Source: Anaerolineales bacterium
Lineage (GTDB): Bacteria > Chloroflexota > Anaerolineae > CG2-30-64-16
Assembly (NCBI GenBank): GCA_017882045.1
Contig: JADGQF010000002.1
Span: 1-63,826, forward strand
Length of the DNA: 63,826 nucleotides
Direction of reading: 5' to 3'
Positions 18,672-59,517 of this stretch are shown here, in pieces; position 1 is the stretch's first letter, and each line of letters starts with the position of its first letter. The notes under the pieces were generated by a model. The model saw nothing but the letters and a program-made list of their open reading frames with translations. It did no database searches and was not told the origin of the DNA. The translations under genes and the position numbers were made by a program.

Positions 18672-21600
18672 ATGGATCAAACGAATCTGATAAGTATTCA
18701 ATCGCTTGAAACCCACTATCGCGCCGACGTGCTGGTCTGCGGTGGAACCGGATGTCACTCCTCAAATTCGCAGCTAGTGCTCGGCGCCCTTGAGTCGGAG
18801 GTCAGCCGGCGTGGCCTGAGCGGCGAAGTGCGGATTGTGCCCACCGGCTGCCGCGGCTTCTGCTCCATGGGCCCCGTCATGATGGTCTTCCCCGAAGGCA
18901 TCCTGTACTGCCAGGTGCAGCCCAGCGACGTGCCCGAACTGGTGGAGGAGACGCTTATCAAGGGCCGCGTCGTCCAGCGCCTCAGCTACCAGGAACCGGT
19001 CGACCAGAAGACGCTGCCCTTCTACCACGACATCCCGTTCTACGGCAAACAGATCCGCATCACCCTGCGCAACTGCGGCATGATCAACCCGGAGAACATC
19101 GACGAGTATATCGCCCATGACGGCTACCAGGCCCTGGGCAAGGCCCTCGCCACGATGACGCCGGATGATGTGATCCGCGAGATGAAGGATTCCGGCTTGC
19201 GCGGTCGGGGTGGTGCGGGCTTCTTGACCGGTCTGAAGTGGGAATTCTGCCGCAAGGCCCAGGGCGGTCCCAAGTACGTGATCTGCAATGCCGACGAAGG
19301 CGATCCGGGCGCGTTCATGGACCGCTCCATCCTCGAAGGTGACCCGCATTCCCTGGTCGAGGGCATGACGATCGCCGCGTATGCGATTGGCTCGCGCGAG
19401 GGCTATATCTACTGCCGCGCCGAGTACCCGCTGGCCATCGCCCGCCTGGAGACTGCCATCGCCCAGGCGCACGAATACGGCCTGCTGGGCGAGAACATTC
19501 TGGGCTCTGATTACTCTTTCGATTTGTACGTCAAGCAAGGCGCCGGGGCTTTTGTCTGCGGTGAGGAAACGGCTTTGATGGCTTCCATCGAGGGACGGCG
19601 CGGCGAGCCGCGTCCTCGCCCGCCCTTCCCGGCCGTCTCTGGCCTTTGGAACAAGCCTTCCAACGTCAATAACGTCAAGAGCTATGCCACGACGCCGCAG
19701 ATCATCCTGCGCGGCTCTGATTGGTTCAAGGGCATAGGGGCCCCCAAGTCACCCGGCACGGCCATCTTCGCCCTCACCGGCAAAATCCGCAACACGGGCC
19801 TGATCGAAGTGCCGATGGGCATGCCGCTGGGCGAGATCATCTTCGACATCGGCGGCGGCGTCCCCACGGGCAAGCAGTTCAAGGCAGTGCAGACCGGCGG
19901 CCCGTTGGGCGGTTGTCTGCCGGCCTCGGCCCTCAACACGCCCGTCGACTTTGACTCGCTGATCGCCGCCGGCGCCACCATGGGGTCGGGCGGCATGATC
20001 GTCGTCGACGAAGATACCTGTATGGTGGAGTTCGCCAAGTACTTCCTGGCCTTCGCCTCGGCGGAATCGTGCGGTAAGTGCGTGCCCTGCCGCGTCGGCG
20101 GCCAGCGCATGCTCGAGATTCTGACCCGCATCACCGAGGGCAAGGGCACGCGCGCCGATGTGGAGAAGATCAAGGAAATCTCGCGCAACATGCGGGAAGC
20201 CTCCTTGTGCGCTCTCGGCCAGGGTACGCCCGGCCCGGTGATGGCCGCCCTGCGCTTTTTCGAGGAAGAGTTCCTGGCCCACATCGACGAGCAGAAGTGC
20301 TCGGCCGGCCAGTGCAAGCCGCTTGTGCGTGCCAAGTGCATCAACGCCTGTCCGGCCGGCGTCGAGAGCCCGGCCTACCTGGCGCTGGTCAGCCAGGGCA
20401 AATACGCCGAGGGCCTGGCGATCCACCGCGAGCGCAACCCGTTTGCCCTCATCTGCGGCCGCGTCTGCCCCGCTTTCTGCGAGCAGAAGTGCCGCCGCGG
20501 CGATATCGACGACCCAATCGCCATCCGCCTCGTCAAGCGCTTCATGGCCGACTATGAGACCGGGCATCCCTGGACACCCGAGCGTCTTTCACCGGCCAAG
20601 TCCCAGCGGGTGGCAGTGGTCGGCGGCGGCCCGGCCGGCCTGACGGCCGCGCTGCGCCTGGCCCAGCGTGGCTACAAGGTCACCGTCTACGAGAAGCTGC
20701 CGGTGGCCGGTGGTATGATGACCGTGGGCATCCCCGAGTATCGTCTGCCGCGCGAACCACTCTTCGCTGAGATTGACAATATCAAGCGCGCGGGGGTCGA
20801 GATTCGCTGTGGCCAGGCGCTGGGCCGCGATTTCACGATCGACCAGCTTTTCCAGCAGGACGGCTTCAACGCCGTCGTTCTGGCCGTCGGCGCCCACAAG
20901 AGCCGCCGCCTGGGGATCCTGGGCCAGGAAAAGCAGGGTGTCCTGCCCGGCACCGATTTCTTGCGCGATGTGTCGCTGCGGCGCGCCGATCCCGCCGTAA
21001 CCGCCCCCATCGTGGGCAAGCGCGTGGCCGTGGTCGGTGGTGGTGACGTCGCCATCGACGCCGCCCGCACCGCCTGGCGGTTGGGCGCCAGCGAGGTCCA
21101 CGTCATCTATCGCCGGCAGTACCAGGATATGCCGGCCCATCCCGAAGAGCTCGAAGCAGCGGCCAAGGAAGGCATCCAGTTCCACTTCCTGGTCAATCCC
21201 GTGCGTTTGCTGGGCGCCGAACGCCTGGCCGGCGTCGTCATGCAGCGCCAACGCCTGGGCGACTTCGATAACAGCGGTCGCCGGCGACCCGTGCCGGTAG
21301 AAGGCGACGAGCTTACCCTCGACGTCGACGTGCTCATCCCGGCCATCGGCCAGACGACCGATCTGTCCTGGATGAAGGAGGATGGCATCGAGGTCACCCG
21401 CAGCAGCACCTTCGTGGTCAAGGACGCCTTCAACACCACCCGGACCGGCGTGTTCGCCGCCGGCGACGCGGTGAGTGGTCCGGCGACCGTGATCCAGGCC
21501 GTCGCACAGGGCAACCTGGTCGCCGTTGCCGTCGATCAGTGGCTACAAACCGGCCAGATGGTCAAGCCGCGCTACGAAACGGCTCGCCCTGACATCGTGC

Positions 21601-21812
21601 AGTTGACCAATCTGGACGACTACGCCAACGCGCGCCGTCCCGAAGCGCCAGAATTGCCGGTAACCGAGCGACGCGGCAACTTCTGCGAAGTTGAGCTTGG
21701 GTTCGACGAGGCCACAGTGCGCGAGGAAGCCAAACGCTGCCTGCGCTGCGACCTCGAATGGATGGATGTCATGGGCATTGCTAGGCCCCAGCTTGAGAAA
21801 GTTCAAGCGTAA
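18672..21812 (+). CDS. NuoF/HndC-like NADH dehydrogenase flavoprotein fused to GltD/NfnB-like FAD-NAD(P) oxidoreductase
   Basis: 1046 aa: LVCGGTGCHSSN; GLRGRGGAGFLTGLKWEF, CNADEGDPGAFMDRSILEGDPH, GAGAFVCGEETALMASIEGRRGEPRPRPPFP (NuoF); INACPAGVESPAYLAL, GRVCPAFCEQKCRRGDID, VAVVGGGPAGLTAALRLAQRGYKVTVYEK (GltD). Confidence 0.92.
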   Translation: MDQTNLISIQSLETHYRADVLVCGGTGCHSSNSQLVLGALESEVSRRGLSGEVRIVPTGCRGFCSMGPVMMVFPEGILYCQVQPSDVPELVEETLIKGRVVQRLSYQEPVDQKTLPFYHDIPFYGKQIRITLRNCGMINPENIDEYIAHDGYQALGKALATMTPDDVIREMKDSGLRGRGGAGFLTGLKWEFCRKAQGGPKYVICNADEGDPGAFMDRSILEGDPHSLVEGMTIAAYAIGSREGYIYCRAEYPLAIARLETAIAQAHEYGLLGENILGSDYSFDLYVKQGAGAFVCGEETALMASIEGRRGEPRPRPPFPAVSGLWNKPSNVNNVKSYATTPQIILRGSDWFKGIGAPKSPGTAIFALTGKIRNTGLIEVPMGMPLGEIIFDIGGGVPTGKQFKAVQTGGPLGGCLPASALNTPVDFDSLIAAGATMGSGGMIVVDEDTCMVEFAKYFLAFASAESCGKCVPCRVGGQRMLEILTRITEGKGTRADVEKIKEISRNMREASLCALGQGTPGPVMAALRFFEEEFLAHIDEQKCSAGQCKPLVRAKCINACPAGVESPAYLALVSQGKYAEGLAIHRERNPFALICGRVCPAFCEQKCRRGDIDDPIAIRLVKRFMADYETGHPWTPERLSPAKSQRVAVVGGGPAGLTAALRLAQRGYKVTVYEKLPVAGGMMTVGIPEYRLPREPLFAEIDNIKRAGVEIRCGQALGRDFTIDQLFQQDGFNAVVLAVGAHKSRRLGILGQEKQGVLPGTDFLRDVSLRRADPAVTAPIVGKRVAVVGGGDVAIDAARTAWRLGASEVHVIYRRQYQDMPAHPEELEAAAKEGIQFHFLVNPVRLLGAERLAGVVMQRQRLGDFDNSGRRRPVPVEGDELTLDVDVLIPAIGQTTDLSWMKEDGIEVTRSSTFVVKDAFNTTRTGVFAAGDAVSGPATVIQAVAQGNLVAVAVDQWLQTGQMVKPRYETARPDIVQLTNLDDYANARRPEAPELPVTERRGNFCEVELGFDEATVREEAKRCLRCDLEWMDVMGIARPQLEKVQA

Positions 21813-29604: not shown

Positions 29605-32600
29605 GTGTCCAGAGGAGAACGCATGGGCGACATAGCAGAGCGTGTGGCGCTACGCCGGGCGGCGGCCAAAGACCTCTGGCAGGGGAAGGTCGGCGCAGAG
29701 CTGTATGTCACGGTCGGTATGGGGACCTGCGGGCTGGCAGCCGGCGCCCAGGATACAGTGGCCGCGGTCGAGGCCGAGCTGGCCCGCCGCGGCAAGCAGG
29801 CTGCGATCAGTCCCGTCGGTTGTGTGGGCATGTGCTCCTACGAGCCGATGCTTGAGCTGCAGTCCTCGGACCATGGGCGGATGAACTACGGCCAGGCCAG
29901 CGCCGAGAACGTCCCCGAGATCTTCGCCGCCTATTTTGACGGCGCCCCCCTGACCAACGCAGTGGTGGTCGGCGAAGTGGTCCCGGTCGCGACCATCGCG
30001 TCGGGACACACGTTGCAGTCCCTCAGCTTCGTTCACCCCAAGGAACACACGCGCATTCCCTTCCAGGAAAAACAACTGCGTGTGGTTCTGAGCAACTGCG
30101 GTTTGATCGACCCGGAGTCCATCGACGACTACCTGGCCATGGATGGCTATTCCGCCCTGGAGATCGTTCTGGCCTCAATGAGCCCCGAGGATGTGATCAA
30201 CGAGATGGTAGGCTCGGGGCTGCGCGGCCGCGGCGGTGGCGGATTCTCAACCGGCACGAAGTGGAAACTGGCCCGCCAGACGCAGCGCTGGCCGAAATAC
30301 GTTATCTGCAACGCCGACGAGGGAGACCCGGGCGCATTCATGGACCGCTCGGTCCTCGAGGGCGACCCGCACTCGCTGGTAGAGGGCATGATCATCGCCG
30401 GCTATGCGATCGGCGCCCAGACCGGTTATATCTATTGCCGGGCTGAATACCCGTTGGCTATCCGCCGTCTGCAGATCGCCCTGGCCCAGGCCCGCGCGTT
30501 GGGGCTGCTCGGCGAGCATATCCTGGGTTCCGACTTCAGCTTCGACATCCTGATCAAAGAAGGGGCCGGCGCCTTCGTCTGCGGCGAGGAGACGGCTCTC
30601 ATGAACTCGATCATGGGTGAGCGCGGCCAGCCCTGGCCGCGGCCGCCCTACCCGGCCGTCGCCGGCCTGTTCGGCCAGCCCAGCAACGTCAATAACGTCA
30701 AGAGCTACGCCTACGCGCCGCGCATCATCCGGTTGGGCGCAAAGTGGTTCAAGGGCCTGGGCACCGAAGGCAGCCCTGGCACAGCGGTCTTTGCCCTGAC
30801 CGGCATGGTCAATCGCACCGGCCTGATCGAGGTCCCTATGGGGGTCACCCTGGGCCAGATCATCTACGAGGTGGGGGGCGGCATTCCCGGGGGCCGCAAA
30901 TTCAAGGCCGTGCAGACCGGCGGGCCGCTGGGCGGTTCCCTGCCAGAAGCCTACCTTGACACCCCGGTCGACTTTGACTCCCTGCGTGCGGCGGGCGCGA
31001 CCATGGGTTCGGGCGGCATGATCGTCGCCGACGAGACGACCTGCATGGTCGAGTTCGCCACGTATTTCATGAAGTTCATTTGCGCCGAGAGTTGTGGCAA
31101 GTGCCCGCCCTGCCGCCTGGGCAGCACGCGTATGCTCGAGATCCTGGAGCGCATCACTGCGGGCAAAGGCGAGTTGGCGGACATCGAGCGCATCCGCCAC
31201 CTGGCCGAGGGCATGCAGAAGGGCTCGCTATGTGCGCTGGGGCAACTGGCCCCTTCGCCCGTGCTCTCCGCCCTACGCCACTTCGAGGACGAGTTCCTGA
31301 CGCACATCAAAGAGGCGCGTTGCCCGGCTGCCAGTTGTCAGATGCTGGTGCGCTCGCGCTGTGTCAGCGCCTGCCCTGCCGGCGTCGACGTCCCGGCGTA
31401 CCTGGCGCTCATCGCCCAGGGCCGCTATGCGGAGGCGCTGGCCGTCCATCGCGACTCCAATCCTTTTGCCCTCGTCTGCGGCCGCGTTTGCCCCGCTTTC
31501 TGCGAGAAGCGCTGCCGGCGAGGCGACATCGACGAACCGATCGCCATCCGCCAGGCCAAGCGGTTTATGGCCGATCATGAATTCGAGGTGCCCTGGCACC
31601 CGCCCAAGCTGGCGCCGGAGAAGAGCGTCAAAGTGGCGGTGGTGGGCGCCGGTCCGTGTGGGCTCACGGCAGCCCTGCGCCTGGCACAACGCGGTTACCA
31701 GGTGACGGTGTTCGAGCGCATGCCACTGCCCGGCGGCATGATGACGTATGGCATCCCCGCCTATCGGCTGCCGCGCGAGGCGCTCTTTGCCGAGATCGAC
31801 AATATCTGGCGGGCAGGCGTCCAGTTCCGCACAAATATGGAGCTGGGCACCGACTTCACCATCAAGAGCCTCAAAAACGAAGGCTACCAGGCAATCATTT
31901 TGGCGTTGGGCGCTCATCGCAGCCGCAACCTGGGCGTCCACGGCGAGGATCTGAAGGGTGTCTACCATGCCGTACAGATGCTGCGCGACATCGCTTCTGC
32001 CCAAACACCTGATCTGGCCGGTAAGCGCGTGGTGGTGATCGGCGGCGGTGACACAGCCATGGACGCAGCCCGTTCGGCCTGGCGTCTTGGCGCGCGCGAG
32101 GTTCACTTGGTCTATCGTCGCGAGCGGGCCGATATGCCGGCTACGCCTGAAGAGATCGAGGGAGCCGAAGAGGAGGGCGTTCGGTTCCACTTCTTGCTCA
32201 CTCCGGTGGCGGTCCTCGGCGACGAGCAAGTCGTGGGCGTGCGGCTCCAACGCCAGCGCCTGGGTGATTTTGACAGCAGCGGTCGCCGCAAGCCCGTCGG
32301 CGTTCCGGGCAGCGAATTCGACATGCCGTGTGACCTGCTGATACCGGCCATCGGCCAGATCACCTGGGTGGAGGACGAGAGCCTGGGTATCCATCGCCGG
32401 GCGACGTTTGAAGTAGGCAAGGCTTTCGATCTCAACGTGCCGGGTGTATTCGCCGCGGGCGACGCAGTGGGCGGCCCGGGCACAGTGGTGCAGTCGGTCG
32501 GCCACGGCAACCTGGTGGCGCAGGCGGTGGACGCCTACCTGGTCACGGGCGAGCTCAAAGAGGTCTACGCCCGGCCGGTCCGCCACGACATCCCACAGCT

Positions 32601-32793
32601 CTACGACCTGGACGACTATGCTGACGCCCGCCGCCCCCGGCCAGTCATGCTTTCGGCGGAGGAGCGCCACCGGCGTCAGCGCTTCGACGAGGTCGAAATG
32701 GTCATGGACGAGCGCACGATCCGCGAGGAGTGCAAGCGCTGCCTGCGCTGCGACCTGGAATGGCTCGAACGCATAGGAGAGCCACTTCCCTGA
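29605..32793 (+). CDS. NuoF-GltD fusion flavoprotein with N-terminal HndB-like domain (paralogue of 18672-21812)
   Basis: 1062 aa; VGMGTCGLAAGAQDTV...VGCVGMCSYEP, GLRGRGGGGFSTGTKWKLARQ, CNADEGDPGAFMDRSVLEGDPHS, SACPAGVDVPAYLAL, VAVVGAGPCGLTAALRLAQRGYQVTVFER. Confidence 0.92.
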   Translation: MSRGERMGDIAERVALRRAAAKDLWQGKVGAELYVTVGMGTCGLAAGAQDTVAAVEAELARRGKQAAISPVGCVGMCSYEPMLELQSSDHGRMNYGQASAENVPEIFAAYFDGAPLTNAVVVGEVVPVATIASGHTLQSLSFVHPKEHTRIPFQEKQLRVVLSNCGLIDPESIDDYLAMDGYSALEIVLASMSPEDVINEMVGSGLRGRGGGGFSTGTKWKLARQTQRWPKYVICNADEGDPGAFMDRSVLEGDPHSLVEGMIIAGYAIGAQTGYIYCRAEYPLAIRRLQIALAQARALGLLGEHILGSDFSFDILIKEGAGAFVCGEETALMNSIMGERGQPWPRPPYPAVAGLFGQPSNVNNVKSYAYAPRIIRLGAKWFKGLGTEGSPGTAVFALTGMVNRTGLIEVPMGVTLGQIIYEVGGGIPGGRKFKAVQTGGPLGGSLPEAYLDTPVDFDSLRAAGATMGSGGMIVADETTCMVEFATYFMKFICAESCGKCPPCRLGSTRMLEILERITAGKGELADIERIRHLAEGMQKGSLCALGQLAPSPVLSALRHFEDEFLTHIKEARCPAASCQMLVRSRCVSACPAGVDVPAYLALIAQGRYAEALAVHRDSNPFALVCGRVCPAFCEKRCRRGDIDEPIAIRQAKRFMADHEFEVPWHPPKLAPEKSVKVAVVGAGPCGLTAALRLAQRGYQVTVFERMPLPGGMMTYGIPAYRLPREALFAEIDNIWRAGVQFRTNMELGTDFTIKSLKNEGYQAIILALGAHRSRNLGVHGEDLKGVYHAVQMLRDIASAQTPDLAGKRVVVIGGGDTAMDAARSAWRLGAREVHLVYRRERADMPATPEEIEGAEEEGVRFHFLLTPVAVLGDEQVVGVRLQRQRLGDFDSSGRRKPVGVPGSEFDMPCDLLIPAIGQITWVEDESLGIHRRATFEVGKAFDLNVPGVFAAGDAVGGPGTVVQSVGHGNLVAQAVDAYLVTGELKEVYARPVRHDIPQLYDLDDYADARRPRPVMLSAEERHRRQRFDEVEMVMDERTIREECKRCLRCDLEWLERIGEPLP

Positions 32794-32843: not shown

Positions 32844-35777
32844 ATGGCGGTTACACTTACCATCAACGGCCAGCGAGTCTCGGCCTCTGAGGGCAGCACC
32901 ATCCTGGAAGCGGCGCGCGCGGCCGGTATCCGTATCCCCACGCTCTGCCATCATCCCGATCTCAGTAACGTCGGCGCCTGCCGTATGTGCGTCGTCTCGG
33001 TCGAGAAGGCGCGCGGCGTGCAGACGGCTTGCACCACGCCCATTTTTGAAGGCATGGTGGTCGATACCGAGTCCAAGGACGCACGTGCCACGCGCCGCTT
33101 TGTGCTGGAGATGCTGCTCGGCGATCATCCGAATGAATGCATGAAATGCGAGGTCAACGGCGATTGCGAGCTGCAAGACCTTGTCTACGAGTACGATGTG
33201 CCCTGGCCCGAGCATGCTGGGCGCCGCCACGCCTACCCGATCAATCCCGATCCCAGCCCGTTCATTTTTGTCGACCGCAATAAGTGCATCCTCTGTACCC
33301 GCTGCGTGCGGGCTTGCGCCGAGATCCAGAACCGGGATGTCTGGAATATCGCTCGGCGTGGGTTCGAGAGCAAACTGGTGGCGGGCGCCGACCAGTTCCT
33401 GCAGGAGGCGCGCTGCGAGAGTTGCGGCCAGTGCGTGGCATACTGTCCCGTTGGCGCCCTGTACGACAAGCTGAGCCTGGGGGCGGGCCGTCCCAACCAG
33501 ATTACCAAGGTGCGCACCACGTGTTCTTACTGCGGGGTCGGCTGTAATTTCGACCTGAACGTGCGCAACGGCAAGGTCGTGCGCGTGACCAGCGCGCCGG
33601 ACGCGCCTGTCAACGGGATGGCGATGTGCGTCAAAGGGCGTTACGGCTATGACTACGTCCACCATCCGGACCGGCTCACACAGCCGATGGTGCGCGCCCA
33701 ATACCTCGACTCCCAACAACTGCAAACACGCCTGGCCGCCGGCGAATGGCGCACTGTGACACCGGCGCCCTCTGCGCCCCGTGGCCTGGACGCGGCCGGC
33801 GAGGCACGACGCCGCCGCCGGACCGGGAACGGCGGTGACGCTGGCGCTGTGTCACAAGCGCGCGCTGTGGTCGACCACCGGCCCTCGGGTTGGGTTGAGG
33901 TCGATTGGGACACCGCCCTGGATGTGGTGGCCCGCAAGCTGACGCTGGTCAAGCGCGAGAGCGGCGGCGACGCGGTCGCCGTGCTCGCCTCGGCCAAGTG
34001 CACCAACGAGGAGAACTACCTGGTGAACAAGCTCACCAGGCAGGTGATCGGGACGCACAACATCGACCACTGCGCGCGCTTGTGACACAGCGCCACCATC
34101 ACCGGTCTGGTGACAAGCTTCGGCAGCGGCGCAATGACGAACTCGATCCGCGATATCACTGAACAGAGCCGGTCGATCTTTATCATCGGCAGCAACACGA
34201 CCGAGCAGCACCCGGTCCTCGGCATCAAGATCCGGCGCGCCAGGCGCCAGCGTGGGGCCAAGTTGATCGTCGCCGACCCGCGCCAGATTGACATCGCGAC
34301 CTACGCCGACCTGCACCTGCGCCACAAGCCCGGCACCGACATCGCCTTGATGAACGGTATCATGCACATCATACTGCGCGAGGGCTGGCAGGACGAGAAG
34401 TTCATCGCCGAGCGCACTGAGGGCTTTGAGGCCCTGCAGGTGGTGGTTGCCAAGTACACTCCCGAAGTAGCCAGCGAGATCACCGGCGTGCCGGTGGAGC
34501 AGTTAGAAGCTGCGGCGCGCATGCTGGCGGAAAACCGGCCGGGCGCCCTGCTTTACGCGATGGGTATCACGCAGCACACGGTGGGCGTTGCCAACGTCGT
34601 CACCTGCGCCAACCTGCAGATGCTGCTGGGCAATATGGGCGTGCCCGGCGGGGGAGTCAATCCCCTGCGCGGACAGAACAACGTCCAGGGTGCCTGCGAC
34701 ATGGGTGGGCTGCCGAACACCTACCCGGGCTATCAGTACGTCACCGACGCCACGGCGCAGCGGAAGTTTGAACAGGCGTGGGGTGTGCCGCTGTCGGACA
34801 AGGTCGGGCTGACCATCACTGAGATGCTCAAGGGCCTGTCGTTGGGCGAGGTACGCTGCCTGTATGTCATCGGCGAGAACCCGATGACCAGCGATCCCGA
34901 CCTCAATCACGTCCGCGAGGCGATGGCTAAGGCCGAGTTCATCGTGTTGCAGGAGATCTTTTACAGCGAGACGGCCCAATATGCCGACGTGATCTTCCCG
35001 GCGGCCAGCTTCGTCGAGAAGGAAGGCACCTTCACGAACACGGAGCGGCGCATCCAGCGCGTGCGCAAGGCGGTGGCGCCACCAGGACAGGCCCGCACCG
35101 ATAGCTGGATCGTCACCGAGTTAGCCAGGCGCATGCTCGCGCTGGGCGCGTCTACCCCTGCGGGCGATGCCCCCTGGGGCGGCTGGGAATATGCCAGCCC
35201 GTCTGCTATCATGAGCGAGATCAACGGCGTCACCCCAAGCTACGCTGGGGTCAACTACGAGCGGTTGGACGCGGGCGAGCCCCTCCAGTGGCCGGTGCCG
35301 AACGTGAACCATCCGGGAACACCCGTCTTACACGTCGGGAAATTCAGCCGCGGGCTGGGGCGCTTCGTGGCCGCTGAGCACGTGCCGCCCGCCGAGTTGC
35401 CCGACGAGGAATACCCGCTCATGCTGACCACCGGGCGCGTTATCTACCATTGGCACGGCGCCGAGATGACGCGGCGGGCGCGCGGCCTGTATGCGGCCTA
35501 CCCCGAAGCGCTGATCGAGATCAGCCCCAAAGACGCGCAGAACTCCGGTATATCTGACGGCGACCTGGTGCGCCTGTCGTCACGGCGCGGCGAAATCTTC
35601 GCCAAGGCGGAGGTGACGCAGCGGGTCGGGGCCGGGCTGGTCTTCGCCACCTTCCACTTCCCCGAATCGGCGGCCAACTTTTTGACCAATCCGGCCGTCG
35701 ATCCGCAGGCGAAGATCCCGGAATTCAAGGTCTGTGCGGTGAAGCTGGAAAAAGCACAGCGCGGGGCGGCTGACTGA
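32844..35777 (+). CDS. fdhA: Formate dehydrogenase alpha subunit, selenoprotein, with NuoG-like N-terminal Fe-S region (UGA at 34083-34085 read as Sec, residue 414)
   Basis: ORFs 32844-34085 and 34110-35777 are in the same frame; junction [35 protein letters not shown] matches the Sec/Cys site of FdhA/FdhF family; N-terminal LTINGQRVSASEGSTILEAARAAGIRIPTLCHH and C-terminal MLTTGRVIYHWHGAEMTRRA. Confidence 0.93.
33842..33874 (+). repeat. Inverted-repeat arm A: inverted copy of the Sec-codon region
   Basis: TGGCGCTGTGTCACAAGCGCGCGCTGTGGTCGA is the reverse complement of 34063-34095 with one mismatch in 33. Confidence 0.9.
34063..34095 (+). repeat. Inverted-repeat arm B, spans the UGA codon
   Basis: TCGACCACTGCGCGCGCTTGTGACACAGCGCCA; 188 nt from arm A. 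Confidence 0.9.
34086..34132 (+). promoter_or_regulatory. Putative bacterial SECIS element
   Basis: Apical hairpin TCACC-GGTCT-GGTGA (34099-34113); GGTCT loop begins 19 nt after UGA; lower stem GCGCC (34090-34094) / GGCGC (34128-34132). Confidence 0.75.
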
Positions 35778-58700: not shown

Positions 58701-59450
58701 GCCCGGCGCCGGCTGGAAGCGATTGAAGAGGCGAGCGAGTTGGGGGCCGGGTTCCGCATTGCCATGCACGATCTGGAGATCCGCGGCGCCGGAGAGTTGC
58801 TGGGCGCGCGCCAACACGGGCACATCGTCGCCGTCGGGTTCGATCTTTATACGCGTCTGCTTGCCCAGGCAGTGCACGAGGCGCGCGAAGTCGAGCGGGA
58901 AGAGGCACGCCGTGACACCGCCGAGCGCAGGGCGCAGACGGGCGGGGGCGCAGCAGCAGCCGGCGACGCAGGTCGAACCACGCCCACTCAAGACGGCGGC
59001 GTTCTCCAGGACCCACTGACCCCCGCAGTCACTCTGGACCTCAACATCCCGGCCAGCATCCCTGAGGGCTACGTGCCGGAAACGGGGCTGCGGCTGCAGC
59101 TCTACCGGCGCCTCGCCGGCCTCAACAGCCTGCAAGCCATCGAGGACATCCGGCAGGAGTTTCTCGATCGCTTCGGCCCGCTGCCCGGGGAGATCGAAAA
59201 CCTGCTGTACGTGGTTAAGGTGAAAGTGCTGGCAATTATGGCAGGCGCGGAGGTGATCAGCCAGGAGGATGGGCAACTCGTCATAAAGAGCGCCCGGCTG
59301 GAATCAGCCGACCGGCCCGCCGGCCTGCAAGAACGGCTGCGGGCCCAGGCCGTGCCGGCCCGCCTGACCCGCCGCGCTATCTGGCTGCCGATGCGCGAGG
59401 CTGACGGGTGGCGTCGTGACCTGGTGGTGACTCTCGAATCGATGCGCTAG
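55788..59450 (+). CDS. mfd: Transcription-repair coupling factor Mfd
   Basis: [97 protein letters not shown]. Confidence 0.97.
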
Positions 59451-59462
59451 GCGCGTGCTGTC

Positions 59463-59517
59463 GGGCGGGAACGAGGAGAGCGGGCGACAATTTCGCCCGC
59501 TCTCCTCGTTCCTGCCC
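59463..59517. terminator. Long hairpin between convergent mfd and epimerase genes
   Basis: GGGCGGGAACGAGGAGAGCGGGCG-acaattt-CGCCCGCTCTCCTCGTTCCTGCCC, 24-bp stem with one G/T position; no obvious U-tract. Confidence 0.75.

Follow-up and report, generated by a model that had tools for sequence, protein, structure and literature searches.

In short-range template-switch mutations some tens of bases are copied from close by in reverse-complement orientation, which can create a long perfect or near-perfect stem in a single event and can change coding sequence (PMC8794818, PMC7954356, PMC8604942). New stems and reverse-complement repeats arise from them in one event (PMC8794818), and in yeast genes, where they alter the coding sequence, the spacers studied were no longer than 70 bp (PMC8604942). 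The inverted repeat described here, in the formate dehydrogenase gene fdhA of an Anaerolineales bacterium, resembles these cases in that a nearby segment of tens of bases stands as a reverse complement. It differs from them in that the source is a selenocysteine (Sec) codon with its SECIS element, the host is a bacterium, the spacer of 188 nt is longer than those studied in yeast, and none of the relatives compared has alignable flanks from which breakpoints could be read. In the bacterial fdhA/fdhF SECIS family (Rfam RF01989, SECIS_3), as here, a UGA in a Sec-containing Fdh-alpha gene is followed immediately by a hairpin with a GGUCU loop; compared with that family, the present element scores 35 bits, where the gathering score is 63, lacks one G-C pair of the apical stem, and has an inverted partner 188 nt upstream. 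Long inverted repeats in coding sequence, with both arms translated, are also described for nematomorph mitochondrial genes; those palindromes are reported to be numerous and perfect (PMC6649704), whereas here there is one imperfect pair, with separated arms, in one gene. The literature searched contained no report of an inverted repeat that covers a bacterial SECIS.

The gene encoding the alpha subunit of a selenocysteine-containing formate dehydrogenase, fdhA, occupies positions 32844-35777 on the plus strand of the window, by which we mean the whole stretch of 63,826 nucleotides analysed (contig JADGQF010000002.1). It consists of a NuoG-like N-terminus and an Fdh-alpha portion read through a UGA codon. 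The two open reading frames that compose it, 32844-34085 and 34110-35777, share one frame that is intact across 977 amino acids, and the protein scores 818 bits against the Fdh-alpha model TIGR01591 (cut-off 666). The only in-frame TGA, at 34083-34085 on the plus strand, stands at the active-site position and is aligned to Sec or Cys in homologues. Because selA (556 bits), selB (311 bits) and tRNA-Sec (66.8 bits) are all present in the genome with scores above their cut-offs, this UGA is very probably decoded as selenocysteine. The SECIS_3-like element lies at 34080-34138 on the plus strand and matches RF01989 with 35.3 bits (E 1.6e-5), and four Chloroflexota relatives score similarly, at 30-39 bits (L035, L042, L060 and L064); the Rfam model may be too narrow for the fdhA SECIS elements of this phylum. 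G stands at position 34098 in 64 of 65 Sec-fdhA homologues; the present element carries A there, and the closing G-C pair of the apical hairpin is lost.

The neighbours of fdhA are NuoE-like and NuoF/GltD-like genes together with a formate transporter of the FocA type; judged by these gene families, this is an ordinary NAD(P)-linked formate-metabolising locus. The window holds two long fusion genes of the NuoF/GltD type, at 18672-21812 and 29605-32793, which share approximately 1.8 kb at 73% DNA identity and are each followed by a NuoG-like gene. Elsewhere in the window, a near-perfect 55-bp palindrome at 59463-59517, just past the end of a long open reading frame at 59450, is probably a terminator hairpin.

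A comparison of the window with itself (blastn, E = 8e-10) showed that 33833-33874 matches the reverse complement of 34063-34104, with 39 of 42 positions identical and 188 nt between the arms. The downstream segment, arm B, lies on the plus strand and is the source; it is conserved FdhA sequence and takes in the codons around the UGA together with the 5' half of the SECIS. Arm A, the upstream segment, is its inverted copy (minus strand), and the sense strand there reads as FdhA residues in the frame GDAGAVSQARAVV. The original prediction had paired 33842-33874 with 34063-34095 at 32 of 33 positions and had placed arm B over the UGA and the 5' side of the SECIS; this core was confirmed and proved to be part of the longer match. 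Its antisense translation of arm A, 16 residues resembling a diverged FdhA Sec site, could likewise be reproduced from the sequence, but the weak similarity that it saw continuing into the SECIS loop (GACCGG onward) gave no continuous alignment and was not counted.

As a background we used 965 kb of stretches from the same genome, about 20% of its 4.85 Mb. Among inverted pairs with arms 50-1500 bp apart in this set, the pair formed by arms A and B ranks first, at 64 bits, and the runner-up reaches 41 bits. The genome has many close hairpins (palindromes) of comparable strength, and so what is unusual about the pair is its spacing and its place, not its length. It is striking, and unlikely by area alone, that the strongest separated inverted pair in approximately 1 Mb should cover a Sec codon; this coincidence sits uneasily with a mere copying accident, but no probability can be attached to it because the finding was selected for exactly that location.

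Arm A lies within a hypervariable loop of FdhA encoded at 33759-33890 on the plus strand, approximately residues 94-137 of the segment that was modelled. In the nearest clade this loop lies between DRLTxP and xVETDWDTAL, is about 40-85 amino acids long and is hardly alignable; it is shorter in most other FdhA proteins. In the present protein it is flanked by DRLTQP and WVEVDWDTAL, its length fits the clade, arm A is in the FdhA reading frame, and the loop sequence, flanks of arm A included, could be aligned to that of none of the relatives. Arm A may have been inserted or may have replaced earlier sequence. Candidate microhomology is visible at the two junctions of arm A, CGGTGA on the left and the palindrome GTGGTCGACCAC on the right.

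A structure prediction made with 23 aligned sequences, moderate overall (mean pLDDT 73.6, pTM 0.53), gave the blocks of residues 101-130 a mean pLDDT of 40-49 and placed segments 99-104 and 115-132 below 50; arm A encodes approximately residues 119-132. Solved formate dehydrogenases align on either side of the loop and not across it. The loop is probably disordered. In other members of the family it is filled with other sequence, namely 52-bp internal repeats in L036 and, in L082, an interspersed repeat that is also present in the flanks; for this reason we conclude that the loop tolerates odd DNA, and that arm A is one more case. An inverted match was also seen in the same loop of L059, and to judge by these three loci (L036, L082, L059) small repeats seem to have landed in this loop repeatedly.

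The inverted copy is confined to one genome in the sets that we searched. Local alignment of the loop to the reverse-complemented Sec region, carried out for the 104 homologues whose loop could be scored, gave a best score of 33 for the present gene and at most 12 for any other, about the level of shuffled loops; complementarity between loop and UGA region was thus found in 0 of the 103 other homologues. A scan of the whole locus in 64 other Sec-fdhA loci revealed no comparable inverted copy of the Sec region, the next best match being 16 bp. The nearest FdhA relative, at 72% amino acid identity, is without arm A, and no other member of the same genus was found among the 10 genomes of the family that were compared. 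Judged from these comparisons of sequence, arm A is derived in one lineage.

The differences between the arms carry information on their history. Among the 104 homologues, the reverse complement of arm A is closest to the gene's own arm B (39 of 42 positions), followed by L042 (37 of 42). At two of the three positions at which the arms differ, it is arm A that has changed: T and C are invariant across the 65 Sec genes, and the equivalents in arm A are A and G. The third difference, at 34098, belongs to arm B, which has A, and arm A keeps the complement of the G that 64 of 65 Sec genes share. Compared with the inferred ancestor, arm A matches at 40 of 42 positions.

We consider it likely that arm A is a recent templated inverted duplication, produced by a template switch and tolerated in a disordered loop, with no evolved switch. 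A reverse-complement copy of tens of bases, lying a few hundred bases from its source and made in one step, is the signature of template switching during replication; templated end repair would look identical. The repeat, its uniqueness, the loop that surrounds it and the ancestral base are observed, and from them we infer the mutational mechanism, neutrality and any effect on decoding as follows. A DNA copying error, either replication template switching or templated repair, would have copied approximately 42 bp around the Sec codon, and the reverse-complement copy would have landed roughly 230 bp farther upstream within fdhA, at a site that encodes a long, variable and probably disordered loop. 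By chance the copy would have been in frame and free of stops on the sense strand, so that FdhA remained full length and the change could be tolerated, and later drift would have altered arm A at two sites and arm B at one. In the mRNA, arm A folded on arm B may briefly cover the SECIS until a ribosome comes, and this might reduce Sec insertion to a modest extent or attract RNase III; such pairing would be a side effect and no evolved device. As a separate matter, the proposal that arm B forms an exceptionally strong quasi-palindrome in DNA, a hot spot for stalling, was rejected, since it ranks only 11th of 65.

A local copy is not the only conceivable source. The original prediction had also suggested the insertion of a piece of another fdhA. 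The donor would be a paralogue or a foreign allele, with the piece inserted in reverse, and the 3 differences in 42 positions from the gene's own arm B, among them a GTC where arm B has ATC and other fdhA genes agree with arm A, fit such an origin. A local copy is nevertheless the likelier source, because the gene's own arm B is the best match among the 104 homologues, and arm A also has the arm B bases GCGCGCGCTTG, which are missing in the others. No second copy of arm A was found in the organism's own genome, and a plasmid search returned ordinary fdhF matches at the Sec site only, none of which covers most of the query. The difference at the conserved Cys codon does not distinguish a donor either: only Cys is found there in all FdhA of the set, and so this change is arm A's own drift regardless. 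We therefore regard a fragment of another fdhA as improbable.

A second possibility is that the repeat is an evolved RNA switch: base pairing of arm A to the UGA and SECIS of the fdhA transcript would control Sec insertion, for instance by denying SelB access to the SECIS for as long as no ribosome has opened the helix. The predicted pairing is strong. In thermodynamic models, which are without proteins or kinetics, the duplex of the two arms has an energy of -79.9 kcal/mol, and a 321-nt segment folds 6.7 SD below shuffled sequences (z = -6.7), with 37.5 pairs expected between the arms and a probability of 0.01 for the SECIS apical stem. The duplex could therefore occlude the SECIS in naked mRNA, as these models have it. 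It has been argued that SelB can already be bound to the SECIS when the ribosome arrives, and that the ribosome's reaching the UGA leads to unwinding of the lower SECIS (Kotini et al., PMC4513850); on that proposal hiding the SECIS could matter, and early occlusion could lower Sec insertion. It also speaks for a switch that the top inverted pair of the 965 kb sits on the Sec site.

Several results nevertheless argue against it. Arm A is present in one genome only, and the pairing is neither conserved nor compensated in relatives; all three differences between the arms (U.U, C.C and A.C) break pairs, with no wobble and no compensation. When a ribosome footprint was modelled at the UGA, pairing between the arms fell to 0. 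Blocking arm A did not restore the apical SECIS hairpin in the prediction, and sequence nearer to the element masks it: it takes a fold that begins at the UGA for the hairpin to form, with a probability of 0.82 like that in relatives, and in folds that include sequence upstream of the UGA it is nearly absent, whereas the relatives have median probabilities of 0.86-0.98. The nearer stretch that competes with the hairpin in these predictions is 34033-34056 on the plus strand, 79% complementary to 34090-34113. These two segments make up a second, weaker inverted pair, 33 nt apart, that straddles the UGA, and its sequence, TCACC-AGGCA-GGTGAT, resembles the SECIS apical hairpin with which it competes in folds. 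Of the earlier proposal that the arms pair over the 188-nt loop and hide the UGA and SECIS, the strong pairing in naked RNA stands as a prediction; the switch on Sec insertion that was built upon it finds no evolutionary support, given that no homologue has the arm, that the differences break pairs and that blocking arm A does not bring back the SECIS. We hold an evolved switch to be very unlikely. It is about as unlikely that one template switch gave rise to a cis antisense arm that masks the UGA and SECIS and makes Sec insertion depend on ribosome traffic or RNA remodelling, which would be a SECIS-occluding attenuator produced by one mutation.

An assembly chimera, which the original prediction had listed as well, or a library chimera, with a false inverted join, is likewise very unlikely: the source is a draft MAG of 462 contigs with 6% contamination, and the call rests on the assembled sequence, but a false join would copy the present arm B and not its past, giving identity to the source and one junction, whereas arm A has two junctions within an intact frame, differs at 3 of 42 positions, two of them drifted in arm A itself, lies in a loop whose length fits the clade, and holds the ancestral base at 34098 that the present arm B has lost, this single base being modest evidence.

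Arm A, which we read as a templated inverted duplication, is a new instance of a known mutational class and a well-documented curiosity. Were its pairing regulatory, it would represent a new mode of control of selenoprotein synthesis, although the evidence points elsewhere. As a copy tolerated by way of a disordered loop, it would offer a clear bacterial case of templated inverted duplication within a conserved gene, and would illustrate that a single mutation is enough to bring a recoding signal into strong long-range RNA pairing. The gene may serve as a natural test of how well Sec decoding withstands occlusion of the SECIS.
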